Below, one piece after another: positions 1,868 through 22,648 of a DNA stretch of 29,661 nucleotides. The position numbers and the translations under genes are program-made. Every line of letters begins with the position of its first letter. Position 1 is the stretch's first letter. The DNA is from a virus: the IMG/VR virus record IMGVR_UViG_3300028384_000564, positions 1 through 29,661 of that record; one strand, 5' to 3'. The notes beneath the pieces are model-generated. The model searched no databases. It saw only the letters and a list, made by a program, of their open reading frames with translations, and had not been told where the DNA came from.

Positions 1868-2041
1868 ATGGCTAAGAAACCTGGATTGTATGCAAACATT
1901 CATGCGAAACGAAAGCGGATCGCAGCTGGATCTGGCGAGAAAATGAGAAAGCCAGGTGAAGCTGGCGCGCCGAGCGCTAAGGATTTTGCCGACAGCGCAA
2001 AGACTGCGAAGAAACCTAAGCGTAAATCGATGATGGGTTAA
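1868..2041 (+). CDS. small basic protein with C-terminal KRKSMM motif
   Basis: A 57-residue, strongly basic protein beginning MAKKPGLYANIHAKRKRI and ending KPKRKSMMG, with an internal GSGEKMRKPGEAGAPSAKDF segment. The first half recalls a widespread small-protein family of marine phages (YANI..KR.RI..GS.EKMRKPG..GAP) of unknown function. It starts four bases after the endolysin stop, which implies one transcript. Its high Lys/Arg content would suit nucleic-acid or virion-internal binding, but that is a guess. The same terminal motif recurs in the next two genes. Confidence 0.7.
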   Translation: MAKKPGLYANIHAKRKRIAAGSGEKMRKPGEAGAPSAKDFADSAKTAKKPKRKSMMG

Positions 2042-2043
2042 TC

Positions 2044-2352
2044 ATGGCAAGGTCGGCAGCATGGCAGCGCAAAGAAGGTAAGAACCCAAGCGGCGGTCTA
2101 AATGAAAAGGGCCGTAAATCTTACGAGCGCGAGAACCCTGGATCTAATCTCAAAGCACCAGTGAAGAAGGGCAACAACCCACGCCGTGCATCTTTCCTGG
2201 CGCGCATGGGAAACATGAAGGGGCCAGAGCGTGATGGAAAAGGTAGACCGACCAGGCTACTTAAATCATTGCAAGCCTGGGGCGCTTCATCGAAAGCTGA
2301 TGCAAAGAAAAAAGCGAAGCGGATCTCAATGATGAACAAGAAGAAAGCATAA
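2044..2352 (+). CDS. DUF6321-like small basic protein
   Basis: A protein of 102 residues. The segment SAAWQRKEGKNPSGGLNEKG, followed by RKSYERENPGSNLKAPVKK and NPRRASFLARMGNMKGP, matches what I remember of the DUF6321 domain, which is common in marine phages and has no known function. The C-terminus is lysine-rich and carries RISMMNKKKA, echoing its neighbours. It begins two bases after the preceding stop and is clearly part of the same operon. Its basic charge and position suggest a virion or DNA-associated role, which I cannot demonstrate. Confidence 0.75.
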   Translation: MARSAAWQRKEGKNPSGGLNEKGRKSYERENPGSNLKAPVKKGNNPRRASFLARMGNMKGPERDGKGRPTRLLKSLQAWGASSKADAKKKAKRISMMNKKKA

Positions 2353-2353
2353 C

Positions 2354-2416
2354 ATGCCTGGTAAAAAAACAAAGCCTAAAAAGAAATCCATGATGGACAA
2401 AGGCTACGGAAAGTAA
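2354..2416 (+). CDS. 20-residue lysine-rich peptide
   Basis: A very short frame from ATG 2354 to TAA 2416 encodes MPGKKTKPKKKSMMDKGYGK. It follows the previous stop by one base and is the last frame before the hairpin at 2417. The KKKSMM motif is shared with the two genes upstream, which is the main argument that it is translated. It could be a separated C-terminal module of such a protein. No strong ribosome site of its own is visible, so translation would rely on coupling. Confidence 0.45.
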   Translation: MPGKKTKPKKKSMMDKGYGK

Positions 2417-2447
2417 AAGCCCTTGCAGTTTGAGGCTACAAGGGCTT
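2417..2447. terminator. bidirectional hairpin between convergent operons
   Basis: A perfect 9-bp stem, AAGCCCTTG (2417-2425) with CAAGGGCTT (2439-2447), encloses a 13-base loop directly after the plus-strand small-gene operon. Read on the minus strand the hairpin is followed by TTTTACTTT, a reasonable uridine-rich tail; on the plus strand the tail is not T-rich. It probably ends the leftward recombination operon as an intrinsic terminator and may also slow or stop rightward transcription. The 101 bases from 2448 to 2548 show no gene. Confidence 0.65.
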
Positions 2448-2548
2448 CCCATATCCAACGATCCGAGGAGACCAATCCCCAGGTGAGAGCAACGTATTAG
2501 AGTAAATACAAAAACATAATACGTTAAGTTGCAATCCTGGTCAATAAT

Positions 2549-2752
2549 TTACTCAGGCCGTAGCCTTGGCTTAATCGATGCAGACAATGTGCCTGTATCC
2601 TTGCACAAAATATCAGCTGGTAACACGTTAGATATTTCCTCAGCTGCGCGCACCAGCTCGTAGCATTTGTCTGCGCTGTTCACCAGGATATGGCTTTCCA
2701 TTTGATAGCCGTTCAGCATGTAGAAAATTGTAAAGATATAGTAAGTTGTCAT
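2549..2752 (-). CDS. small conserved-looking phage protein with hydrophobic N-terminus
   Basis: This 67-residue protein starts MTTYYIFTIFYMLNGYQMES, a short hydrophobic strand or helix. It has two cysteines (C32 in DKCYEL, C50 in ILCKDTG) and ends SASIKPRLRPE. The combination C-x-DTG with a terminal S-x-S-[IL]-R/K-P tail is familiar from small proteins in alphaproteobacterial phages, function unknown. It is the last gene of the leftward recombination operon and is separated from the next gene upstream by a 95-base structured spacer. Confidence 0.55.
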   Translation of the reverse strand: MTTYYIFTIFYMLNGYQMESHILVNSADKCYELVRAAEEISNVLPADILCKDTGTLSASIKPRLRPE

Positions 2753-2785
2753 TGCCTCTGCCTCTCAGTTTGTTAGATTGTTTTG

Positions 2786-2843
2786 GTGGGTGGTGGCATT
2801 CCCAAGCCCAAGTTATAGTCCGACCATATATAACGCCACCCAC
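2786..2843. other. imperfect long hairpin in the spacer between two minus-strand genes
   Basis: The arms GTGGGTGGTGGCATT (2786-2800) and AACGCCACCCAC (2832-2843) pair over about 12 bases with a small bulge. The inner arms TTATA (2813-2817) and TATAA (2829-2833) offer a competing or extended pairing. No T-rich tail follows in either direction, so it is a weak terminator candidate. It could stabilise or process the leftward mRNA. Short frames across it have no coding character. Confidence 0.4.
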
Positions 2844-2847
2844 ACGA

Positions 2848-3111
2848 TCACTCCCAAGGCGCTGGCTGTACGGATACCCCGCTCGATCTCACGCCTGGTC
2901 TCTTATCTTTTTTAACGCTTGTGTATTTTTCTCCGTACCGCTTGGGAAACCTAATACCAAGCTCATAGGCCCACTTTCTCAGCGAACGTGGATCCATGTC
3001 TAGCTCTCTCGCAGCGTCAGTCATGTATAAATTATTGACGCTTTTGATTAATTCATGCAGCTCTTGTCTGTGCCGAGCCGCTAACTCTTTGTAACTTTCT
3101 ATCTTTGCCAC
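2848..3111 (-). CDS. small helix-turn-helix protein
   Basis: An 87-residue protein read from a GTG at 3111, overlapping the 3' end of the upstream gene by 13 bases. Residues about 30-50 (MTDAARELDMDPRSLRKWAY) form a clear helix-turn-helix of the kind used by small phage DNA-binding proteins, preceded by a charged helix (7-25) and followed by a basic tail. The longer frame that begins at 3174 would start inside the Gln-rich coding repeat and is unlikely. It may regulate the recombination operon or act with its enzymes; the sequence does not decide this. Confidence 0.65.
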   Translation of the reverse strand: MAKIESYKELAARHRQELHELIKSVNNLYMTDAARELDMDPRSLRKWAYELGIRFPKRYGEKYTSVKKDKRPGVRSSGVSVQPAPWE

Positions 3112-3485
3112 GGCGCTGCTTGTTGCTGTGGTTGCTGCCACTGTTGCTGTTGAGGGGCCGGTTGTTGCTGCCATTGTTGCTGTGGTGGTTGCTGTTGTTG
3201 CTGCGGCTGCATGTCCCGATCATTTGGAAACAGGTTCCAGGATCCGATCTTAGGCCAGTTGCGCGCATCATCTCCGCGCCGGGCTTTAATCTGCACGTTT
3301 ACTTTCAGCTTGTGCTGCACCATCAGCTGGTGGATCTGATCTATAGCCGCAAGAGCTTCCGGGTTATCCTTCATCTCTATTGGTTCGTTAATCCAGGCGG
3401 ATGCTGCCATGTCTACATTCTGACCGTTATCCATATAGCCTTGTATCTGTAACCGGCTGTTTCCTAGTTGTGGTTTGTTGCTCAT
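3099..3485 (-). CDS. Gln-rich-tailed protein of the recombination operon (ssDNA-binding-like)
   Basis: A protein of 128 residues. Residues 1-90 look like a compact beta-rich domain (MSNKPQLGNSRLQIQGYMDN, then KVNVQIKARR and NWPKIGSWNLFPND). Residues 92-128 are almost entirely Gln, Pro, Trp and Ala, ending in APWQR. A small folded domain with a flexible low-complexity tail directly behind an annealing protein recalls single-strand DNA-binding proteins, but I see no unambiguous OB-fold signature, so the role is inferred from context. It starts within an ATGA overlap with the annealing-protein gene. The tail may vary in length through slippage of its CAG/CAA-type codons. Confidence 0.7.
   Translation of the reverse strand: MSNKPQLGNSRLQIQGYMDNGQNVDMAASAWINEPIEMKDNPEALAAIDQIHQLMVQHKLKVNVQIKARRGDDARNWPKIGSWNLFPNDRDMQPQQQQQPPQQQWQQQPAPQQQQWQQPQQQAAPWQR
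3101..3212 (-). repeat. CAG/CAA-type low-complexity coding repeat
   Basis: This stretch is made largely of TTG/CTG triplets on the plus strand (CAA/CAG on the coding strand) with scattered CCA and TGG. It encodes the Gln/Pro/Trp tail of the gene at 3099-3485. The near-periodicity of three makes it prone to replication slippage. It also produces long open frames on the opposite strand and in a second minus frame; these are artefacts of the repeat. Confidence 0.7.
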
Positions 3486-4096
3486 AGCATTGCCTTTCTC
3501 TTGTTAAATTCTTGTTCAAGTTTCGCATAAAGATCCGGGCGATCTTCATTCATGCGGTTTAGCCCACTGTCGTAGTAGTCCTCCCATTGTTTCAGGTGCT
3601 CCAGGACAGTGATAGTCTTTAGTTCTGCAAGCCTCTCGTCAAGATAACTTTGCATACCATCATCTACCGCCAGGTGTTGCGGCATAGGAGATTGACGCTG
3701 AGGTGGCGGGGGCGGGGTTTGCTGATCGTCGTTGTGCGGCACATCTTCCCCGGCATAAATGTATAATCCCAGGCCATGCAGCGCGATTGCTTTTACCCAG
3801 CAACGCATCCGAGCATCGTTGATCTGCCTGGCGTTTGGGTTCTGGATTGCTTTATTGCTGTGATCCATTACCGGAAGCCACATCATATGGGTCAGCTCTT
3901 CAATCGTTACACTGACACGCACCTCTCTTGTGCCGTCTGGAAACACAACGTCCTCGAGGATCTCAAACGTTGCGCCAGGGTATTTGTCTTTGACCTGTTG
4001 CCAGGCCCATGACCAGGACAAGTAACTAAACCGCCCCTTCTTTTCTATTTTGTTGCCCACGTCAATGCCGGACAAATCTTTCCATGCTGTGCTCAT
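3482..4096 (-). CDS. DUF1071 single-strand annealing protein
   Basis: A 204-residue recombinase that anneals complementary single strands after exonuclease resection. The conserved block SYLSWSWAWQQ (24-34), the strand WLPVMDHSNKAIQNPNAR (73-90) and the signature MRCWVKAIALHGLGLYIYAGEDVP (97-120) are characteristic of DUF1071 (PF06378), a branch of phage annealing proteins. A proline-rich linker (about 126-135) precedes a helical C-terminal part. The start at 4096 is chosen for its GGAG ribosome site and ATGA overlap with the exonuclease; a longer in-frame start at 4156 lies inside that gene. Together with its neighbours it forms a two-component recombination system. Confidence 0.9.
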   Translation of the reverse strand: MSTAWKDLSGIDVGNKIEKKGRFSYLSWSWAWQQVKDKYPGATFEILEDVVFPDGTREVRVSVTIEELTHMMWLPVMDHSNKAIQNPNARQINDARMRCWVKAIALHGLGLYIYAGEDVPHNDDQQTPPPPPQRQSPMPQHLAVDDGMQSYLDERLAELKTITVLEHLKQWEDYYDSGLNRMNEDRPDLYAKLEQEFNKRKAML

Positions 4097-5082
4097 CTTA
4101 ATACTCCTGCTAATTTTTTCGCTCGGCGCAGCACGTCCGGGTGTAGGTCGCGCCACACAAAGCTGTCTCCAAAATGAGGATCACAGAGTTTTAATAATTG
4201 TTCTGTGTTTTCTGTGACCATCATTAGTTTTTCCCGGCGCACACACGCCGCGATAACATCTTGCAATGCATATTCTAACTGCTCAATCGTTGCCTCAAAC
4301 ACACGATAGCCTAACCGATTTGCGTAAACAATGCGAGGGATCTTGCCGGTGATGTGCCAATACCCGGCTATCTGCATCAGGTGCATCTGCTTTATATCTT
4401 TCGGCAAGCTGTTGGATCTCGGGCTGTCAGTATCAACGCCGGTATCCCATTGCGTCTTAAGCTCGACGGCTCCCTCCTGGTAATCTCCAAAGCCCAGGTA
4501 ATCTAGCTCGCAGCCTGGCAGCTGACCGCGCAGCTCAGTCTGCCCGATGATTTGGTTGGCACCCTGCATTGCTTCTTTCAATCCCGCATGAGCATTCTCG
4601 CAGACCAGCTCAAACTCGCAGTGTGCAATCTCATCGCCTTTCTTCAAAGCTTTACCGTCAGCTCCAAACCTAACTTTCTGACGGCCCTCGATCTGCGCTG
4701 CGGTTTTATCCTGGTCAATCCAGGATCCGGTTTGCAATCCAGCTAACACGTTCACTGCTTCACTGTATGCCTCAGATGGCATGGCGCCCTCGATCAGCAT
4801 GAGGTCGCAAAAGTATTCAACGGCCCGACCTGATGCCATGTTTATGTTGTCCTGGAATTGCGTCTTGCCGAGATAATCCTGGTAGTATCCGCCTTGCTCA
4901 AGCACGGCCTCTGCATTTGATTTGACACCTTCTGCCTCATCTCTTAGCACTTTCAATGCCTGGCTGCGCTCCGGTCGAATGATGCCCTTCTGAAAAAAAG
5001 TGTAGAAATCTGGGGTACTTGGCTGCGAATGGTGGTAATATCCCTTGCTGTACGCCCACTTTTTAGAATTACTTATCGACAT
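4093..5082 (-). CDS. PD-(D/E)XK exonuclease of the recombination module
   Basis: A protein of 329 residues of the RecB/Cas4/lambda-exonuclease-like class. The core is visible: GRAVE (85-89), CELDYLGFGD with catalytic D194, and AVELKT with E207 and K209, followed by the helix QMHLMQIAGYWHITGK that usually supports the active site. It would resect double-stranded ends so that the annealing protein, translated from an overlapping frame, can load. It is the first gene of the leftward operon, divergent from the regulator at 5155. A role in concatemer formation or in recombination with other phages is expected from the pairing. Alternatives are other Cas4-like nucleases of the same fold. Confidence 0.88.
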   Translation of the reverse strand: MSISNSKKWAYSKGYYHHSQPSTPDFYTFFQKGIIRPERSQALKVLRDEAEGVKSNAEAVLEQGGYYQDYLGKTQFQDNINMASGRAVEYFCDLMLIEGAMPSEAYSEAVNVLAGLQTGSWIDQDKTAAQIEGRQKVRFGADGKALKKGDEIAHCEFELVCENAHAGLKEAMQGANQIIGQTELRGQLPGCELDYLGFGDYQEGAVELKTQWDTGVDTDSPRSNSLPKDIKQMHLMQIAGYWHITGKIPRIVYANRLGYRVFEATIEQLEYALQDVIAACVRREKLMMVTENTEQLLKLCDPHFGDSFVWRDLHPDVLRRAKKLAGVLR

Positions 5083-5097
5083 GCTTGCATCTTTCGT

Positions 5098-5128
5098 TTG
5101 ACAGATTATGTCATTAAGTAGTAAATGA
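5098..5128 (+). promoter_or_regulatory. rightward promoter with TTGACAG-N4-TGTCA operator
   Basis: TTGACA (5098-5103) is followed by a 17-base spacer and GTAAAT (5121-5126) as a possible -10 box, with the Cro-like gene 29 bases beyond. The -35 box is the left arm of an imperfect palindrome TGACA-GATTA-TGTCA (5099-5113). The same design occurs near 9088 and 9844. A second small inverted repeat, TCATT (5111-5115) with AATGA (5124-5128), spans the -10 region. On the minus strand TTGTTC, an 18-base gap and CATAAT could serve the exonuclease operon, so one regulator bound here could affect both directions. Confidence 0.6.
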
Positions 5129-5154
5129 GAACAAACATTGCAAGGAGTTTTTTT

Positions 5155-5358
5155 ATGACACTGGAAGATTGGCGAAACAAGAAGGGCTTGTCCTACTCGC
5201 AGCTGGCGAAAAAGCTAGGGGCTTCTCATGCCACTGTTGTGCGGAGGTGGTGTCTACCATCGAGCCACAAAGACCGGATGATACCGGCGCATAAATTTAT
5301 GACGATCATACAAGAGAGCACTCTCGGTGAAGTCACAGCTAATGATTTCTACAGGTGA
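5155..5358 (+). CDS. Cro/C1-type helix-turn-helix regulator
   Basis: A 67-residue protein (MTLEDWRNKKGLSYSQLAKK...) with the pattern S-Y-S-Q-L-A-K-K-L-G-A-S-H-A-T-V-x-R-W at residues 13-31, a canonical XRE-family helix-turn-helix. The start is set by AGGAG seven bases upstream of ATG 5155; a longer in-frame start at 5125 would run through the probable -10 region. It is the first gene of the rightward early operon, directly downstream of a palindromic promoter, and divergent from the recombination genes. That is the usual position of a phage switch regulator. Autoregulation is likely. It lacks a C-terminal oligomerisation or cleavage domain, so it resembles Cro more than CI. Confidence 0.85.
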   Translation: MTLEDWRNKKGLSYSQLAKKLGASHATVVRRWCLPSSHKDRMIPAHKFMTIIQESTLGEVTANDFYR

Positions 5359-5361
5359 TCT

Positions 5362-5694
5362 ATGGGCGGGAAAGCGGCAAGAGATAAAGGCGCAGCCTAC
5401 GAGCGGGAGATTGTAAACTGGCACCGGGAGCGTGGCGTTGAAGCTGAGCGGATCCCATTGTCCGGGGCGATGAAAGGAAACTATGCGAGTGACATAAAGC
5501 TGGGGCCAGCTCTGGCCCTTACAGCTGAGTGCAAGCGCAGAGCGAGAGCGTACCAGGATCTATATGATGCGCTCGACCAGGACGACAGCGATATGCTGTT
5601 TGTTCGCAAAGATCGGGAGCGCACCCTGGTAGTGCTTCCCCTGGAAACTTACGAGGCATTTCTACAATGGATTGGATGGATACAGAAAAAGTAA
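5362..5694 (+). CDS. Holliday-junction-resolvase-like PD-(D/E)XK nuclease
   Basis: A 110-residue protein with the small resolvase pattern: KGAAYEREIVNW (E14/E16), RIPLSG (30-35), D44 in SDI, and the E-x-K motif ECKRR (E56, K58), followed by VVLPL. This matches the archaeal Hjc-like/phage resolvase group, which nicks branched DNA during recombination and packaging. Its length is typical. It follows the Cro-like gene by three bases, placing a junction-cutting enzyme beside the divergent exonuclease/annealing operon. A VRR-type or other PD-(D/E)XK nuclease of unknown specificity is the main alternative. Confidence 0.8.
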   Translation: MGGKAARDKGAAYEREIVNWHRERGVEAERIPLSGAMKGNYASDIKLGPALALTAECKRRARAYQDLYDALDQDDSDMLFVRKDRERTLVVLPLETYEAFLQWIGWIQKK

Positions 5695-5855
5695 ATGAGT
5701 TTATGATGTACCAGGCAAAGTATGGCCTAGACAAAAACAACTTAAAGTTCATGCGGAACACAATGGTCAACCACAATAAGCGATTGCTGGCGACCGTGGA
5801 TCTGAACAAAGAAATGATAAAAATGATTGATGAGCAAATAGCAGAGAAGGAGTAA
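5667..5855 (+). CDS. small charged helical protein, unknown
   Basis: A 62-residue helical protein rich in Lys, Asn and Met (KYGLDKNNLKFMRNTMVNHN) ending in an acidic tail DEQIAEKE. ATG 5667 overlaps the nuclease gene by 28 bases, with GAGG about 12 bases upstream. Later in-frame ATGs at 5676 and 5703 are possible and would reduce or remove the overlap. I recognise no domain. The composition fits a small DNA- or protein-binding early protein. Confidence 0.55.
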   Translation: MDWMDTEKVNEFMMYQAKYGLDKNNLKFMRNTMVNHNKRLLATVDLNKEMIKMIDEQIAEKE

Positions 5856-5859
5856 GCTC

Positions 5860-6147
5860 ATGCCATACACAGAAGAAAAGATCGGTTATCAAAAGACTGA
5901 CACAAGCGAGGCGGCTGCGCGCAGCAACTACCCAGGCAAACTAACAGCGCGCGATCGAGTGCAACAACTTTTAGAAAAAACCGCGCAGAAATTTACCACT
6001 GAGGAAATATCGGAACTATTAAGGATCCCATACGGCACGGTGCAGCCACGTTTGACTGAGCTGCGGGATGCAGGGAAGGTCGTTGATTCTGGAGAACGCG
6101 GCGAAACGAAGTGGGGTAAGCCATGCATCAAGTGGAAAGCAAAATGA
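5860..6147 (+). CDS. winged-helix DNA-binding protein
   Basis: A 95-residue protein with a strong ribosome site (AAGGAG seven bases before ATG). After an N-terminal EEKIGYQKTDTSEAAARS segment, residues about 30-85 form a winged helix: a helix (RDRVQQLLEK), TTEEISELLRIPYGTVQPRLTELRDAGKVVDSGERG, and a final strand KPCIKWK. This type is common in the early regions of phages of proteobacteria, where it probably regulates transcription or takes part in replication initiation. The target is unknown. Its stop overlaps the next start (ATGA). Confidence 0.78.
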   Translation: MPYTEEKIGYQKTDTSEAAARSNYPGKLTARDRVQQLLEKTAQKFTTEEISELLRIPYGTVQPRLTELRDAGKVVDSGERGETKWGKPCIKWKAK

Positions 6148-12693: not shown

Positions 12694-12878
12694 AGAAACG
12701 CAGGCCAGTTAATGTTGCCGGCATGATGGGCAAGATGGCGTCACAGCCTAGCCAGGGCAAGCGCGAGGGAACCGTAGATCCATTGGAACGTCTGGAGCAA
12801 AAGCGCGCTGGGCGTATGGAGGGCGGCAAGAAATCCAAGAAGCGCAAAAGTTTAATGTTTAGTTATGGGATGTCATAA
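12690..12878 (+). CDS. small basic protein, head gene cluster
   Basis: A 62-residue, very basic protein (MKKRRPVNVAGMMGKMASQP ... GGKKSKKRKSLMFSYGMS), coupled by ATGA to the gene before it and by TAATG to the portal. Its KSKKRKSLM ending resembles the K-rich KxSMM endings of the small proteins at 1868-2416. It might bind DNA within the head or act in assembly; I cannot show either. Confidence 0.6.
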   Translation: MKKRRPVNVAGMMGKMASQPSQGKREGTVDPLERLEQKRAGRMEGGKKSKKRKSLMFSYGMS

Positions 12879-14491
12879 TGCCAGAAGTATTGCCAATGAT
12901 TGCACAGCTAGATCGCAGATATAAAACTCTGCAATCTCAGCGTTCACAATGGGAAAGTCACTGGCAAGAGCTTGCGGACTATATGTTGCCACGTAAGGCG
13001 GACATCACAAAGAAGCGCACCCAGGGTGATAAACGTACCGAATTGTTATACGATGGCACGGCGGTACATGCGGTTGAGCTGTTGGCGTCTAGCTTGCATG
13101 GAATGCTTACATCCCCCAGCACCCCCTGGTTCTCTATGCGTTACCGGGATCCTGATTTGCAAGGTAACGATGCGGCGAATGAGTGGTTAGAGATCTGTCT
13201 CGATCAAATGTACCAGGCGTTTCATAGATCGAATTTTCAGCAAGAGATCCATGAGTTGTATTATGACCTGGTTGTTTTTGGTACAGCTGCGTTTTACATC
13301 GAGGGATCTGATGATGGATTGCGGTTTAGTTCCCGGCACATTGCCGAGATCTGCATATCGGAAAACCAAGACGGCGCTGTTGATACTGTGTATCGTAAGT
13401 TTAAGCTTTCGGCTCGAGCTATTGCTATGCAGTTCGGTGAGAACGAAATCCCTCTCGAGGTTGCAAAAGATTTAGAAAAAGAGCCTTACAAAGAGCACGA
13501 TATTGTTCATGCTGTTTTCCCCAGGCAAAATGCTAAGGGTGGGGCAAAGAAAAACAAACCTATTGCGTCTGTTTATTATACTGCGGGTAGTCGGCAGCTG
13601 CTAAGCGAAAGCGGCTTTGACGAGTTTCCCTTTATGGTTACACGTTTTGTTAAGGATAGTGTTTCGACGTATGGGCGTAGTCCAGCAATGAATGCGCTAC
13701 CGGATACAAAGATGCTGAACAAGATGTCAGAAACAACAATAAGAGCGGCACAAAAACAAATAGATCCGCCGCTTATGGTTCCGGATGATGGGTTTATGTT
13801 GCCTGTGCGTACTACGCCAGGGGCTTTGAACTTTTATCGTACCGGGACGCGAGACAGGTTAGAACCGTTGCAGATTGGGGCAAACAATCCCCTTGGGTTA
13901 AACATGGAAGAGCAGCGCCGGAACGCGATACGCCAGGCGTTTTTCGTTGACCAGCTGCTAATGTCCAATGGCCCAGCTATGACTGCCACGGAGGTGTTGC
14001 AAAGGAATGAGGAGAAAATGCGGCTCCTCGGGCCTGTGTTGGGCCGCTTACAGGCGGAGTTGCTCCAACCCCTGATCTCCCGATCCTTTGCATTGCTCCT
14101 CCGGGCCGGCCTCCTCCCTGCGGCTCCGGAGGAGCTACAGGGCCGAGAGATAGATATTGAGTATGTTTCACCACTAGCCAAGGCGCAGAAGATGACTGAC
14201 CTACAGTCTATGTTGCGCGGGTTCGAGGTGTTGATGCAGATGCAGCAAGTGGCGCCTGTTATGGATTACCTGGACGATGATAAGCTGGTGCAGTACCTGG
14301 TCGAAACGGCTGGGATCCCGGCGCGTGTTATTCGCAGTACATCTGAGGTAGCGCAGTTGCGGCAGCAAAAAGCTGAGGCGCAAGCAGCGCAAGCCCAGGC
14401 ACAACAGGAAATGATGCTGGCGGAGCAAGCAAACAAAGCGGCGCCGTTGCTGAAAGTCGCGTCTGATGCAAGGGAGCGCGGACAGATATGA
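12878..14491 (+). CDS. portal (head-tail connecting protein)
   Basis: A 537-residue protein of the bacteriophage head-to-tail connecting family (PF12236, T7 gp8-like). Conserved blocks include YMLPRKADITKKR, LLYDGTAVHAVELLASSLHG (about 55-75), TPWFSMRYRD, and the stem-region sequence SNGPAMTATEVLQRNEEKMR with LGPVLGRLQAELLQPLISR (about 365-400). The C-terminal 60 residues are Gln/Ala-rich and helical, the usual barrel. It forms the dodecameric DNA gate at one capsid vertex, contacts the terminase during packaging, and later holds the tail-tube protein A ring. The length is normal for the family. Confidence 0.93.
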   Translation: MPEVLPMIAQLDRRYKTLQSQRSQWESHWQELADYMLPRKADITKKRTQGDKRTELLYDGTAVHAVELLASSLHGMLTSPSTPWFSMRYRDPDLQGNDAANEWLEICLDQMYQAFHRSNFQQEIHELYYDLVVFGTAAFYIEGSDDGLRFSSRHIAEICISENQDGAVDTVYRKFKLSARAIAMQFGENEIPLEVAKDLEKEPYKEHDIVHAVFPRQNAKGGAKKNKPIASVYYTAGSRQLLSESGFDEFPFMVTRFVKDSVSTYGRSPAMNALPDTKMLNKMSETTIRAAQKQIDPPLMVPDDGFMLPVRTTPGALNFYRTGTRDRLEPLQIGANNPLGLNMEEQRRNAIRQAFFVDQLLMSNGPAMTATEVLQRNEEKMRLLGPVLGRLQAELLQPLISRSFALLLRAGLLPAAPEELQGREIDIEYVSPLAKAQKMTDLQSMLRGFEVLMQMQQVAPVMDYLDDDKLVQYLVETAGIPARVIRSTSEVAQLRQQKAEAQAAQAQAQQEMMLAEQANKAAPLLKVASDARERGQI

Positions 14492-14697: not shown

Positions 14698-15539
14698 GCG
14701 AAGAGGCAACCCTAGATACAGGATCTCAAGAAGTCGCTGAACCAGTTGCAGCCCCAGCTGCGGTGGAGCAACCAGTAACAGATCCGGCACCCCAAACGAG
14801 CTGGCTTGATATGCTCGATCAACAATATCGAGAAAACCCGCTTATCAATAAGTTTGAGAACCCGAATGAGTTTGCAAAAAGTCACATTCACGCGCAGCGT
14901 TTCATTGGAGCTGATAAGGTTCCATTGCCAGGCCCGAATGCTACGGATGATGAGTGGCGGTTAGTTTATCAGCGTTTAGGCGCTCCCGAGGATCCAACTA
15001 ACTATGAGATAGACAAGACTGAGCTTTTTGATGATGCATCCTTTGATACATTCAGAAACAAAGCTTATGAGATGGGACTGACTAACAAGCAAGCCCAGGC
15101 GGTTGCAAGCTTGTATGAAGAGCAAGTTAACACCGGCTTACAAGCTCTCGAGCAACGTTCAGAAGAGGCTCGATTTCAAGGCGAGCAAGAATTGCGCCAG
15201 GAATTTGGGCAGCATTTTGACGCTCGGTTAAAAATGGCGAGATCTGCGGCGGAAACTGTTATGCCAAACCCGCAAGTTTTTAATGAGGTTCGGCTCGAGG
15301 ACGGCAGACTTATGGGGGATCACCCCGAGATAGTTAAGGCATTTGCCAAGGTTGCCGAGATGCTAGGCGAGGATAGCCTGGTCGGAGAGCCTACAGAGTT
15401 TGTGATGAGTGCTGAGGAAGCTCGGCGGCGCATTGCAGAGCACATGCGGCCTAACACGCCGTATACGACTGCTGGACACCCAGAGCATGACGCGGCGGTT
15501 GCCGAAGTCTTGCGCTTGCGTGGCTACGCTAGTGGATAA
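14694..15539 (+). CDS. capsid scaffolding protein
   Basis: An acidic protein of 281 residues. An N-terminal disordered Ala/Pro/Glu/Val-rich segment (1-33) is followed by SWLDMLDQQYRENPLINKFE, the motif AKSHIHAQRFIGADKVPLPG (about 62-81), DEWRLVYQRLGAPEDPTNYE, and a long helical region rich in Glu, Gln and Ala. The C-terminal helix (HDAAVAEVLRLRGYASG) probably contacts the capsid protein. Such T7 gp9-like scaffolds guide procapsid assembly and leave or are degraded before packaging. Its place between Bbp19 and the capsid gene supports the call. Confidence 0.87.
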   Translation: MSEEATLDTGSQEVAEPVAAPAAVEQPVTDPAPQTSWLDMLDQQYRENPLINKFENPNEFAKSHIHAQRFIGADKVPLPGPNATDDEWRLVYQRLGAPEDPTNYEIDKTELFDDASFDTFRNKAYEMGLTNKQAQAVASLYEEQVNTGLQALEQRSEEARFQGEQELRQEFGQHFDARLKMARSAAETVMPNPQVFNEVRLEDGRLMGDHPEIVKAFAKVAEMLGEDSLVGEPTEFVMSAEEARRRIAEHMRPNTPYTTAGHPEHDAAVAEVLRLRGYASG

Positions 15540-15663
15540 CCGAGAGGCCCACGACATCAAGCTTGTGCGTCAAGCGGAGTAGCTGCCCTAAGCAGTAGCA
15601 CGGCCCCGCAAGGGATAACCAAGCGCAGCAAAAAAACTGAAACTTAGCTAGGAGAATGACGAG
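15540..15663 (+). other. structured leader before the capsid gene
   Basis: This 124-base spacer is long for this genome. It can form three short hairpins in a row: GCTTG/CAAGC (15561-15575), CTGC/GCAG (15583-15595) and CCC-GCAA-GGG with a GNRA loop (15605-15614). An A-rich stretch and TAGGAG before ATG 15664 follow. It may protect or expose the capsid mRNA, or mark an RNA-processing point. No promoter boxes or coding frame are convincing. Confidence 0.4.
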
Positions 15664-16965
15664 ATGTCTACTCAAGTAACTACAGCTTTTGTCAATCAGT
15701 TTTCAGCAAACATCCAGATGCTATCACAGCAAATGGGTTCTCTGCTGCGTAATGCGGTAGATGTTGAAAGCGTAAATGGCGAGAAAGCTTTCTTTGATCA
15801 AGTTGGTTCAGCGGCAGCGCAGTTGCGTACAACCCGCCACGCCGACACACCATTGATCGACACACCACACTCACGCCGCATGGTCACAATGGCTGACTAT
15901 GAGTACGCGGATTTGATCGACGATCAAGACAAGATCCGCATGCTTGCAGATCCTACATCAACATACTCACGCGCAGCGGCAGCTGCTATGGGTCGCGCTA
16001 TGGATGATGTTATCATCACAGCTGCTTTAGGTGATGCGTCTACAGGCAAAGAGGGTTCAACAACAACATCTTTTGACACAACTAATAACCAGATCGCAGC
16101 TGCGACATCTGGCTTGACGTTGGCAAAGCTTATCCAGGCAAAAGAAATCCTGGATTCTGGTGATGTTGACCCTTCAATCCAGCGTTATATTGCTGTGTCT
16201 CCAAAACAGGTCACTGATCTGTTGAACAACACAACAGTAACATCAAGCGACTACAACACAGTCAAGGCGCTTGCGATGGGTGAAATCAACACATTCGTTG
16301 GCTTTAACTTTATCGTAACAAACCGTCTTGGTGTTGATGCTTCATCTGACCGCCGTTGCTTTGCATGGGCGCAGGACGGCATTAAAGTTGCGATGGGTAA
16401 AGAGCCTACAGCTCGCATTGATGAACGTGCTGACAAATCATACGCAACACAAGTTTACTACTGCCAGACCCTTGGTGCGACACGCATGGAAGAGGCGAAG
16501 GTTGTAGAGGTCTTGTGCGAAGAGAGAGCTGAATTGGCGCGCGAAACTGACGGCCCTTCTTATGGGTATTCTTATCAGTATACATTGCCAACTAATCCTT
16601 ATTGCTTAAGGGTGCTAGAATATAGCAATGGAACATTAACGTTTCCGTTTGACAATATTCCGACAGGTACAGGCGCTCCGTCTTTTATTATTGAAGGGCG
16701 TAAGCTTCTTACGAATGAAGGTGTAGCTCAGATTAAATATGTTGCGCGCATTACAGACCCGCAGCAATACGATGCTGGATTAATTGAGACATTGGCGGCA
16801 AGATTGGCATATGAGATCTCGTATGCAATCACGGGATCTACAACAATGCGGCAGTTAACAGCTGCCGACTACGATAGAAAGCTAAAAGAAGCTACGTTCC
16901 AGGATGCAACTGAGGGTGCGCCAGAAAGGATCGAGGCTAACGATTTTATTGAAGCGAGGTTCTAA
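15664..16965 (+). CDS. major capsid protein fused to C-terminal part of tail-tube protein A
   Basis: The 433-residue frame joins two proteins. Residues 1 to about 287 are a major capsid protein of the marine podovirus type (TTRHADTPLIDTPHSRRM, YADLIDDQDKIRM, TSSDYNTVKALAMGEINTF, GATRMEEAKVVEVL), essentially complete. Residues about 288-433 (RAELARETDGPSYGYSYQYT, YCLRVLEYSNG, YDAGLIETLAARLAYEIS, DFIEARF) are the C-terminal three quarters of a T7 gp11-like adaptor, normally a separate gene of about 190-200 residues. The adaptor's first 45-60 residues are missing. Codon choice shifts at the junction near 16520. It may be a deletion fusion or an assembly join; both functions are essential for a normal virion. 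Confidence 0.85.
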   Translation: MSTQVTTAFVNQFSANIQMLSQQMGSLLRNAVDVESVNGEKAFFDQVGSAAAQLRTTRHADTPLIDTPHSRRMVTMADYEYADLIDDQDKIRMLADPTSTYSRAAAAAMGRAMDDVIITAALGDASTGKEGSTTTSFDTTNNQIAAATSGLTLAKLIQAKEILDSGDVDPSIQRYIAVSPKQVTDLLNNTTVTSSDYNTVKALAMGEINTFVGFNFIVTNRLGVDASSDRRCFAWAQDGIKVAMGKEPTARIDERADKSYATQVYYCQTLGATRMEEAKVVEVLCEERAELARETDGPSYGYSYQYTLPTNPYCLRVLEYSNGTLTFPFDNIPTGTGAPSFIIEGRKLLTNEGVAQIKYVARITDPQQYDAGLIETLAARLAYEISYAITGSTTMRQLTAADYDRKLKEATFQDATEGAPERIEANDFIEARF

Positions 16966-18968
16966 TGGCTCGATCAGCTCCATCGCTTAGCACGTTTACA
17001 GCTGGCGAAATCTCCCCGCGCCTCGAGGGGCGTATTAATCTTGAGAAGTATAGAGCCGGGTTATCTGATCTGACTAATATGGTTGTGCAGCCACACGGAG
17101 GCGTAACGCGGCGTCCTGGCACAGAATACCTGGGCGCGGTTAAAGACAGCGCAGATAAAACCAGGCTAATTCCGTTTCAGTTTAAAACGACAGACACGTA
17201 TATCCTGGAGTTCGGCAACCAGTATATGCGGGTTTTTCGCAATGGGCTGCAAGTTCTCGAGGGATCTGCGCAAACAATTACTGGTGCAACACAAGCGGAT
17301 CCTGGTGTTATTACAATATCAGGACACGGTTACAGTAACGGTGATGAGATTTACCTGGATAGCGTAGGCGGTATGACCGAGCTGAATGGGCGCAATTATC
17401 TGATTGCAAACGTCACAGCGAACACATTTACACTGCAAGATCTCTTTGGCAATGACATCGATACAACAGGGTTTACTGCGTACACCTCTGGTGGATCTGT
17501 TGATAAGATCTATGAGGAAACTACGCCTTATGCGATTGCGGATGTATTTGATCTGCGCTTTGCACAATCAGCGGATGTTATGTATTTTGCTCATCCGAGC
17601 TACGCAATTCGCACTTTGTCCAGGACAAATCACAATGCCTGGACATTTGCGACAGCTTCAATCAATGAGAATGACACGCCTGTATTGACAAGCTCTGACA
17701 ACTACCCGAGCGTAGTTACGTTTTTCGAGCAGCGGCTAGTTTTCGCTGCGACAAACAACAATCCGCAAACTCTGTGGTTTTCTAAAAGCGCTGATTATTT
17801 AAACTTTCACACAGGCACAGCGGCTGATGATGCGTTAATCTACACGATTGCATCTAACCAGGTTAACAGCATCCGTTACTTATCTGCTACTCGCGTTCTT
17901 ACGATAGGCACCTCGGGCGGTGAATACGTGCTTACAACAACGAATGACGGCCCGATTACGCCATCAACGACACAGATCCGCAAATATTCCAATTATGGAT
18001 CTGCGAATACTGAGCCTGTCCAGGTTGCAGATGTTACGCTGTTTTTGCAGCGCGGTAATCGAAAGGTGCGTGAGTTTAAATACGTGGGTGAAGTTAACAC
18101 GGCGGGATACCAGGCGCCGGATCTGACTGTCTTGGCGGAACACATTACTGAGGGCGGTTTAGAGCAGTTTGCCTACCAGCAAGAACCTGAGAATATTGTG
18201 TGGTCGATCCGTTCTGATGGAACGCTGTTGGGTCTTACATATCGCCGGGAGGAAGAGGTTGTCGCCTGGCATAAGCACGTAATCGGTGGCGAGTTTAATA
18301 GCGGTCAGGCGGTTGTCGAAAGCATTGCCACCTTGCCAACAGATACCGGGAATGACGAGCTTTACATGATCGTAAAGCGTACAATAAACGGTACAACTAT
18401 GCGCTATGTAGAAGTCTTGAAAGACTTTGATTTTGGCAGTGTAACGACATCATCATTCTTTGTTGATAGCGGGTTGTCTTATTCTGGCAGCGCAGTGTCC
18501 GGGTTTAGTACGCTATATCATTTGGAAGGTGATACAGTTTCTGTACTTGCCAACGGTGCATCGCACCCGAATGAAACCGTTTCAAACGGTGCAATCACAC
18601 TAGATTTCTCGGCTACCAGCGCAGCTGTAGGCTATGGATACACAAGCTCAATGCAGACATTGCGAATTGAAAGCGGATCTAGTGACGGCACAAGCCAGGG
18701 TAAACCGAAGCGGATCCACGGTATTACGGTTCGATTGTTCGAGACAGTCGGTGTCGAGGTGGGCAATGAAAGCTCCGAAGCCGACAGGATCTTTTTCCGT
18801 GACAGCTCTATGAATATGGATGAAGCCGTGCCTCTATTCACCGGCGATAAAGACATCGAGTTTCCTGGTGGTTTTGACGACGATGATAGGATATACTTGC
18901 AACAGACACAGCCCTTGCCTTTGACAGTCCTGGCGCTGTACCCACGAATGAACACGTTTGATAAATGA
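16965..18968 (+). CDS. tail tubular protein B (nozzle)
   Basis: A protein of 667 residues, normal for T7 gp12-like nozzle proteins that extend the short tail below the adaptor ring. The N-terminus (SLSTFTAGEISPRLEGRINL, GLSDLTNMVVQPHGGVTRRP) is the typical opening of the family. A beta-rich insert at about 100-180 (ITISGHGYSNGDEIYLDSVG) resembles the FCCH-like insert common in these proteins. The later parts (PSVVTFFEQRLVFAATNNNP, LWFSKSADYLNF, GNRKVREFKY) form the propeller-like body. It starts on a TAATG overlap with the fused capsid/adaptor gene, its natural partner, and ends on an ATGA overlap with the core protein gene. Confidence 0.9.
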   Translation: MARSAPSLSTFTAGEISPRLEGRINLEKYRAGLSDLTNMVVQPHGGVTRRPGTEYLGAVKDSADKTRLIPFQFKTTDTYILEFGNQYMRVFRNGLQVLEGSAQTITGATQADPGVITISGHGYSNGDEIYLDSVGGMTELNGRNYLIANVTANTFTLQDLFGNDIDTTGFTAYTSGGSVDKIYEETTPYAIADVFDLRFAQSADVMYFAHPSYAIRTLSRTNHNAWTFATASINENDTPVLTSSDNYPSVVTFFEQRLVFAATNNNPQTLWFSKSADYLNFHTGTAADDALIYTIASNQVNSIRYLSATRVLTIGTSGGEYVLTTTNDGPITPSTTQIRKYSNYGSANTEPVQVADVTLFLQRGNRKVREFKYVGEVNTAGYQAPDLTVLAEHITEGGLEQFAYQQEPENIVWSIRSDGTLLGLTYRREEEVVAWHKHVIGGEFNSGQAVVESIATLPTDTGNDELYMIVKRTINGTTMRYVEVLKDFDFGSVTTSSFFVDSGLSYSGSAVSGFSTLYHLEGDTVSVLANGASHPNETVSNGAITLDFSATSAAVGYGYTSSMQTLRIESGSSDGTSQGKPKRIHGITVRLFETVGVEVGNESSEADRIFFRDSSMNMDEAVPLFTGDKDIEFPGGFDDDDRIYLQQTQPLPLTVLALYPRMNTFDK

Positions 18969-19945: not shown

Positions 19946-22648
19946 ATGAGAATACCTACTTATCAAGCTGGATCCACACCTAGCAGCGATATGCCTGGAC
20001 GTTCATTCCGGGCAAGAATGAATGCGCAGCCATTTATCCAGGAAGCGCTCGAGAAAGGCGCGGTTGCGCAAGAGGCGTTTAAGCAAGTAGGAGCGTTTGC
20101 CCAGGATCGATATAAGCAAGCGCTACAGGCCCAGGTTGATGAGAAGGTTATCCAGGTTGAAGAACAGCTGGCGACGACCGCAAACAAAATGGCGGACGGC
20201 CCGAGCTATCACAATGTCTTTGACGGCGATAAGCTTTGGGAAAACGAGAGCGCAAAGATCCGAGAGAATGCCCTGGCTAATGTGCGGGATGTCGCGGCTA
20301 AAAACCATCTTAAGCATCGTTTTGACCAGATGGAATTGTCTACCAGGTTCAAGCTACAGAATACTATCGATGCAAAAATAGAAGCGGCTAACGTTGCATC
20401 TCGCAATCGGATCCTGGCAAACGGTGCGAATATTATTGCAAACGGCACACAGGTAGGTGCCGTTAACCTGGATCTGCAAAACATTGGCGCTGACAGTGTG
20501 TTCCGGGGTGGTCTTGGCACTGGTGCTCCGGACAAGCTGGCGAAACAAGAGTACGCTATGCTGGTCGATGGCACGTTTGGTGCTCTTAATAACCTGGCGA
20601 AAAACTCTGATAACGCCGCGCGTGACCTGGAGATTATTCGCAGCTCGTTCTCGAGCGATGATCTTACTGACCTGGCAACGGTAAACAACGGCCTGTACGT
20701 TATGGGTTTGTTGCGCAAGCTAGACTACAATGATGCGGCTAAGCTGATACGCTCTGTTGGTGGCGATGCGGCGTATCTAAATAAGCTTACAGCTGCGCAG
20801 CAACGCGAGATCGATGCGGCAAAAGGCAATGCCTCAACGCTGCAATCGGCTCTCGATAAAGCGCAAGATGGCGTTACGTCCGGGGTAAACCAGATCCCGG
20901 CAACTATGTTTCCTGAGATCGAGGCAACCATCGCTGGATTAGATGGCATTGTTGACGCGAGCGAGCTAGGGCAGTTGCGTCAATCTTTTGATGACTTGCA
21001 GTTTTCTCAGAATTTTCTGGCAGATCACCGGGAGCTTAGTCCACCTCAGTTAGCCCAGGCGCTTGCGGCAGCTGAGCAAGGCGGGGCAAACGGTGTGGTT
21101 GAAGCCGGTCGAGAAACATTAACTGTAAACCTGTTGCGTGATCTGCAAAGCAAGATGGATCAGGGTTTGTCGAGAGATCGCCTGGCATACGCGCAAGAGG
21201 CCGGCAACGTGCAGCTAGGCACGATTAACTTTAACGATCCCCAGACAATTGGCATGGACATACAGGAGCGAATCGAGGATGCGCGCCGGGTTCAAAGCAT
21301 TTATTTCCCAGAGTTGATGCGCGGGGATCCTAACAAACACCTGGTACTGCTAACGAACACAGAAGCTACACAGCTCTCGAACATGTTTGACGCAGCTCCT
21401 CTAACGCAAAAGCTGCAAATGCTGGAAGCTATCCAGGGCGGTATGGCTGCGGCGGGATCTCCGGATCTAGCGACTAACGTTTATTCTCAGATTGGCGATC
21501 AGAATGGCATGATGTCACATGCTGGTGGCCTGGTTGCGCTCGGGCGCCCAGATGCAGCGCGAGAGATCTTGCAAGGTTTAGAGCAAATCAAAGCCGGTGT
21601 TGCGTATCCAAAAGCGGTTGCAAACACTGAGGCGGGGGTAAAGCAAAGCATCGAGCAAGTTATTGCTGGTGAGCTGCAAGAGGCATTGCGGTTCCAACCG
21701 GAAGCTACCGGGGCGATTATCCAGGCAACTAAAGCAATTATTGCCAATCGTTTCATTGGCGTAAGCGAAGAGGATCTGACGGTCGATAACGTAAAAGAGG
21801 CTATGCAGATTGCATCCGGCGCGCAAAAGCGTAACGGACAGGTATATGGCGGGATCCATGTTATCAATGAAGCGGCGACATTTATTCCTAGTGATAAAAC
21901 TGTGGATGAGTTTGAATATGTCCTGGACAGCTTAACGCCGGAAATGTTTTCCGAGATGGGATTTGATATTAGCCCGGCAATGTGGGATCAGGTGCTCGCT
22001 GGTGAGTGGGCGTTTCAGGTTGCGGGTGATGGTCAGTACCGGATCATGCAAGACAATGGCCCGACAGGTGTACCGACATATCTGAATGGCTATGCAAACA
22101 ACATCGAGGGCAACCCACAGGTTCCTATCCTCATTGATTTCAATACAGCTGCAAGTGTCTTGGAAGGGTTTAAGCTGCGCGCTAATCGTGCGGGAATAAC
22201 TGAGTTTAGCCAGGCAGTAGGAAGTACAGAATTAAGAAGTAATTTTAACGAAGATTACAGAATTTCTGCGGTGGATGGAGAGCTGATTCGAGATGATTTG
22301 CCGCCTGAGGTAGAGTTCCAGGCGGTAGAGGATACTGAGGTTGCCCAGGCATCTCCGCGACAAATTAAAGCAGGGCAAATGTTTGAACGGCAGCGCAGAT
22401 TAGAACAGCGCCAGGTTCTCGAATTAGGCCAGGATCTAGCTCAAGATAATCGCGTCCAGCAAAATGTAGAGCTGAAACAGCAACGTCAAAGCAAAGTGGA
22501 TAGATTGCCGGATATGTTTAACAATGCAGATTATCGAGGGGCTACGCCTGAGCAACGCGAAACATACCAGGGCTACCTGATGCAGTGGTTGCGTGACGAT
22601 AACGCAATCGACGTTCTAAGCTTTAACGATTGGATGGAAACGCAATGA
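19946..22648 (+). CDS. gp15-like internal core/ejection protein
   Basis: A 900-residue protein, mostly helical, with alanine- and glutamine-rich repeats (ALEKGAVAQEAFKQVGAFAQ, long helices at 80-160) and a Gln/Arg-rich coiled coil near the C-terminus (QMFERQRRLEQRQVLELGQD). The middle carries RYRIMQDNGPTGVP-like strand sequence (QYRIMQDNGPTG) as in other podovirus core proteins. Size, position after the gp14-like gene and helical content suit a T7 gp15-type protein that spans the periplasm during DNA ejection. I see no enzymatic motif. The start has AGGAGATAAGAC seven bases upstream. Homology at the sequence level is weak, so the call rests on order and composition. Confidence 0.75.
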   Translation: MRIPTYQAGSTPSSDMPGRSFRARMNAQPFIQEALEKGAVAQEAFKQVGAFAQDRYKQALQAQVDEKVIQVEEQLATTANKMADGPSYHNVFDGDKLWENESAKIRENALANVRDVAAKNHLKHRFDQMELSTRFKLQNTIDAKIEAANVASRNRILANGANIIANGTQVGAVNLDLQNIGADSVFRGGLGTGAPDKLAKQEYAMLVDGTFGALNNLAKNSDNAARDLEIIRSSFSSDDLTDLATVNNGLYVMGLLRKLDYNDAAKLIRSVGGDAAYLNKLTAAQQREIDAAKGNASTLQSALDKAQDGVTSGVNQIPATMFPEIEATIAGLDGIVDASELGQLRQSFDDLQFSQNFLADHRELSPPQLAQALAAAEQGGANGVVEAGRETLTVNLLRDLQSKMDQGLSRDRLAYAQEAGNVQLGTINFNDPQTIGMDIQERIEDARRVQSIYFPELMRGDPNKHLVLLTNTEATQLSNMFDAAPLTQKLQMLEAIQGGMAAAGSPDLATNVYSQIGDQNGMMSHAGGLVALGRPDAAREILQGLEQIKAGVAYPKAVANTEAGVKQSIEQVIAGELQEALRFQPEATGAIIQATKAIIANRFIGVSEEDLTVDNVKEAMQIASGAQKRNGQVYGGIHVINEAATFIPSDKTVDEFEYVLDSLTPEMFSEMGFDISPAMWDQVLAGEWAFQVAGDGQYRIMQDNGPTGVPTYLNGYANNIEGNPQVPILIDFNTAASVLEGFKLRANRAGITEFSQAVGSTELRSNFNEDYRISAVDGELIRDDLPPEVEFQAVEDTEVAQASPRQIKAGQMFERQRRLEQRQVLELGQDLAQDNRVQQNVELKQQRQSKVDRLPDMFNNADYRGATPEQRETYQGYLMQWLRDDNAIDVLSFNDWMETQ

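Follow-up and report, generated by a model that had tools for sequence, protein, structure and literature searches.

HTVC010P-like marine podoviruses (the Pelagibacter phages HTVC010P, HTVC203P, Lederberg, Greip and others) carry their structural genes in the order portal, capsid, adaptor and nozzle. In these phages, as well as in the IMG/VR relatives compared in this study (L001–L156), the capsid and the adaptor are encoded by two genes with a stop codon between them. The adaptors are of the T7 gp11 type, whose solved members include T7 gp11 (PDB 7BOX and 6R21), KP32 TTPA (5MU4) and the Carin1 connector (8CK1). In T7 gp11, the channel bundle consists of helices 1–4, and contact with the nozzle is made by the loop that links helix 1 to helix 2 (PMC6702177).

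Two layouts of the region between the capsid and adaptor genes are found in close relatives. In the first, the capsid stop is followed by the hairpin GGGGCGG-TTCG-CCGCCCC, a GGAG motif and an adaptor gene of 201 codons; in the second, a gene of about 153 codons follows the capsid stop and precedes the same hairpin and adaptor. The GC hairpin with its TTCG loop and subsequent T-rich stretch lies directly before the adaptor (4547–4565 in L002, and the equivalent site in nearly all relatives), where it probably acts as a terminator or an RNA processing site and keeps the adaptor expressed at a lower level than the capsid. The 153-aa gene (5327–5785 in L091, MATVYSAQRTNSRATPAVMNK...) is carried by many relatives and is missing from the sequence studied here and from L001–L013, L016 and L017; its product is possibly a capsid decoration protein.

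The window, by which we mean the whole linear IMG/VR virus record of 29,661 bases, shares the HTVC010P-like gene order, with portal, terminase, nozzle-like and internal virion protein genes around the locus, and is 49–58% identical in protein sequence to the named phages over the capsid and adaptor. Unlike in all of these phages, a single frame covers both proteins (Table 1). The initial annotation had described this frame as a capsid fused to an N-terminally deleted adaptor, and both families are indeed matched within it.

Table 1. Features of the capsid–adaptor locus and its surroundings in the window.
Feature	Coordinates	Strand	Remarks
Portal (head-tail connecting protein) gene	12878..14491	+	intact; 91% nucleotide identity to L091
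Left cassette edge	15530..15664	+	L090/L091-like before, L001-like after; conserved intergenic motif GTGGATAACC...GGCCCAC
Capsid–adaptor ORF	15664-16965	+	one open frame, 433 aa, no internal stops
Complete major capsid protein	15664..16524	+	287 codons, without stop codon; L001-like lineage
Joint	16524..16525	+	GAAGAG joined to AGAGCTG; GAAGAG followed by AGAGCTGAATTG
Head-tail adaptor (gp11-like, tail tubular protein A), residues 56–201 and stop codon	16525..16965	+	
Adaptor body, first part	16525..16710	+	186 bases; at most ~74% nucleotide identity to any sampled relative
Nozzle (tail tubular protein B-like) gene	16965..18968	+	intact; 95.7% nucleotide identity to L089

Based on profile matches, the first part of the frame is a capsid over its full length, rather than the near-complete one initially described: phrog_3437 (major head protein) matches residues 1–287 across the whole family length (E 9.8e-91), and PF19821 (Phage_capsid_2) is covered at positions 1–293 of 293 with 297.3 bits, above the curated cut-off of 25 bits. 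The gene is about 92% identical in nucleotides to the L001–L010 type, with dN of ~0.015 and dS of 0.34–0.38 against L001 and L002, and the capsids of IMG/VR relatives reach 97% protein identity to it. It differs from the other members of these families in having no stop after the last capsid codon. The last capsid sense codon, codon 287 ending at base 16524, runs directly into adaptor codon 56, at the site where the join had been placed before.

The remaining 146 residues are the body of a gp11-like adaptor, as had been proposed. They are matched by phrog_394 (tail; residues 285–432 of the frame, profile positions 53–188 of 190, E 2.7e-27), align with residues 56–201 of the intact 201-aa adaptors of relatives and are 86% identical to that of L091. 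Everything from the capsid stop through adaptor residue 55 is absent at the joint, including the strong GC hairpin and the ribosome-binding region; a loss of the stop, the intergenic region and 45–60 N-terminal residues had been anticipated. Aligning the two halves gives a gap of about 215 nt relative to L001-type capsid relatives or about 690 nt relative to L089–L091, the latter figure including the small separate gene that these relatives carry there.

To assess what the adaptor has lost, we compared it with intact homologs. Among 40 adaptors, 45 columns are invariant, and 20 of these fall in residues 1–55. A model of the intact L091 adaptor (mean pLDDT 76.7, pTM 0.68) places helices at residues 4–15 and 28–47 and the start of a strand within the first 55 residues, and it matches the solved gp11-type folds, best 8CK1 (E 1.2e-12, TM 0.76) and also T7 gp11 (E 6e-6). 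The window copy is without both of these helices and the intervening loop, which are expected of gp11-like adaptors; by homology to T7, it would be deprived of half of the bundle and of the nozzle contact. Modelled alone, the shortened body reached lower confidence than the intact protein, with a mean pLDDT of 69.9 and a pTM of 0.46, a difference that counts as weak evidence because the chain lengths are unequal.

The shift in codon use at the joint, which had been noted initially, is real, with rare codons rising from 0.7% before the joint to 8.2% after it, but it is not specific to the joint. Unfused relatives show the same contrast between capsid (1.7%) and adaptor (6.9%), and the shift therefore reflects only two different genes. 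At the joint itself, the flanks of intact relatives share no bases, and usable microhomology is absent. A CGAAGAG microhomology, common to both flanks in L006-like relatives, was considered and set aside, as it predicts a product four bases shorter than the one observed.

To establish whether the join is shared, we collected loci with the whole fused protein and with the adaptor part as queries, which gave 135 loci other than the window that contain both genes. In every one of the 135, a capsid stop lies at position +1 or +4, that is, within two codons, and 218–1405 nt separate the capsid end from the adaptor body; the window has no such stop. Among 224 adaptor loci with readable upstream sequence, a set that includes additional loci from a later search, only the copy in the window runs on into a capsid. 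At this position, close relatives do have both a stop codon and a complete adaptor gene, an arrangement that the initial annotation had named, together with mis-joined reads, as telling against its fusion, and the search that it had suggested for the same join in related contigs came back empty (0/135 two-gene loci and 0/223 other adaptor loci). An exact 21-mer of the joint had no other match in the IMG/VR records searched, a set from which records nearly identical to the window may be missing. We also used a degenerate pattern consisting of capsid MEExKVVE, a gap of 8–38 nt and adaptor AEL(A/P), which the window contains once, against a chance expectation of none; it had no further match in IMG/VR, at a sensitivity of about two thirds in this group (both pattern ends are present in 103/155 relatives). 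An independent second record, as a natural fusion should have, was accordingly found neither by the IMG/VR patterns nor among the 223 other adaptor loci. Three relatives were found among GTDB contigs; two match the capsid part only, and in the third the match to the two halves stretches across 1.9 kb, which means that it does not have the same short joint. No natural capsid–adaptor fusion was found in the literature searched, the coverage of which was limited. Collectively, the joint and the loss of these parts are seen in this contig, and the joint is absent from all relatives examined.

Two further candidates were rejected. Yersinia phages YeP4-6 appeared as a fused match to both halves, and their record has two separate genes. 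A loose DNA pattern for short capsid–adaptor gaps returned, among the matches listed, unrelated contigs, none of which encodes either protein.

The contig is a mosaic of an L089/L090/L091-like backbone and an L001-like capsid cassette. Before the capsid and from about 16850 onward, the backbone mostly shares 82–99% identity with one of L089, L090 and L091, apart from 14700–15100, where it diverges. In contrast, the capsid gene is mostly 71–80% identical to L089–L091, although its first bases and a part close to the end reach 90%. The change to L001-like similarity falls within a short conserved intergenic motif near 15530, at the left edge listed in Table 1, and this similarity stops exactly at the joint, which forms the right cassette edge. 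The region 15530–16524 is thus either a capsid cassette swapped in from another lineage or a piece joined from another phage in the sample, which would make the contig chimeric. The left edge looks like the product of ordinary recombination in nature at this conserved motif, so the exchange of the capsid gene may have truly occurred. For the first part of the adaptor body, a dedicated search found no closer relative, and its synonymous sites are saturated; low identity together with this saturation indicates an origin from an unsampled lineage rather than recent decay. Both halves of the frame are under purifying selection and show no decay. Between terminase and position 22648, each structural gene for which relatives permit a comparison has its full length, so the genome is not generally decayed. 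Elsewhere in the window, a gene for a Sak-like single-strand annealing protein and a 329-aa gene without a match (3482–4156 and 4093–5082, minus strand) overlap by 64 bases.

Weighing these observations, we consider it probable that the frame reflects a non-homologous joint within one contig rather than a working gene, most likely a chimera of assembly or library preparation. The points that we count for an artefact are the uniqueness of the joint, its position exactly at the end of the L001-like similarity, flanks without homology, removal of the hairpin, an adaptor deprived of 20 invariant residues and two helices with no second copy in the window, and late genes of full length. In such a scenario, the sample would hold several related phages, and a bridging read would connect two of them. 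The capsid gene of one lineage would be linked, at its last sense codon, to codon 56 of an adaptor gene, and a chimeric or wrongly merged read would close the gap beside the strong GC hairpin; the joint would have originated either in the tube, during library preparation, or in the assembler. In the actual phage, this site would then be occupied by an ordinary capsid gene, the hairpin and a full adaptor. Counting against an artefact, the joint contains no run of N, the frame stays open, and the left cassette edge has the look of natural recombination. The chance that two random coding stretches join in an open frame would be about 1 in 3. A plain repeat collapse by the assembler, the form of artefact initially suggested, fits poorly, as no sequence is common to the two flanks there and the cassette and flanks come from different lineages. 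Of the readings offered at the outset, a defective phage or an assembly collapse agrees with the data far better than a working fusion.

The strongest competitor, which we regard as unlikely yet worth serious weight, is that the DNA is real and has suffered a lethal deletion by illegitimate recombination, perhaps in the same event as the capsid cassette swap, leaving a defective genome packaged only with an adaptor supplied by a helper. The clear mosaicism of the contig, with a cassette edge at the joint, is consistent with such a deletion, as are the purifying selection and lack of decay in either half. Junctions of illegitimate recombination are usually without homology, and the one seen here has none; such an event would equally explain the uniqueness of the joint, the removal of the hairpin and the full-length late genes. 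However, a dead genome should be rare in a population, whereas an assembled contig requires it to be fairly abundant; for this reason, we favor an artefact over a real deletion. Moreover, neither the exact nor the degenerate pattern recovered another copy in IMG/VR.

It is improbable that the phage is viable through a full adaptor encoded in an unassembled part of the genome, with the adaptor piece on the capsid as a tolerated passenger. At 29.7 kb, this linear fragment is shorter than related complete phages, which have ~34–39 kb, so some sequence is missing; in phage display, the T7 capsid protein tolerates C-terminal additions. However, the adaptor of all relatives lies only between the capsid and nozzle genes, a place that is present in the window, and querying the window with a full-length adaptor recovered only residues 56–201, at 16525–16962, with no second or relocated copy.

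A working fusion, in which the adaptor body sits on every capsid subunit or is freed by processing or internal initiation and still joins portal and nozzle, appears highly improbable, and we give equally little credence to a viable podovirus with the adaptor body as a C-terminal capsid domain, where one polypeptide would serve both head shell and neck. The open frame, the conservation of both halves and the retention of the C-terminal, portal-facing part of the adaptor agree with a functional product. Against it, the two bundle helices and the nozzle-contact loop known from T7 gp11 (PMC6702177) lie within the lost residues, no confident model of the shortened form was obtained (a weak point, given the unequal chain lengths), and hundreds of capsid copies are needed versus twelve of the adaptor. 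No relative has the join, and such a virion would have to manage without the conserved first quarter of the adaptor while bearing an adaptor piece on each capsid subunit; overall, the data do not support a working fusion. A fusion that existed and functioned would violate the rule of separate production, in very unequal amounts, of shell and neck proteins.

With the chimeric joint that we favor, the locus serves mainly as a warning: two conserved virion genes that are separate in all relatives can appear in one contig as a clean fusion with the reading frame kept open. It also indicates that capsid genes are swapped as cassettes between lineages in this marine podovirus group, and because of this exchange such joints are likelier to arise or to be mis-assembled.

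One of the collected loci, L345 (IMGVR_UViG_3300009134_000007), carries a very long open reading frame ahead of its adaptor body and was examined as a possible capsid fusion. Its capsid gene is separate, and the frame proved to be an adaptor gene (1885–3369) with a large tandem-repeat insert between the helical start and the body. The repeat unit of about 40 aa, SDWSKVTDPGTLPTGxGxGAAFSPDGSLLAIAHxTSPxVTIYNT, is reminiscent of a beta-propeller. The next, nozzle-like gene (3551–6133) has the same repeat inserted at several places, and it looks like this repeat domain has spread among neighboring tail genes.
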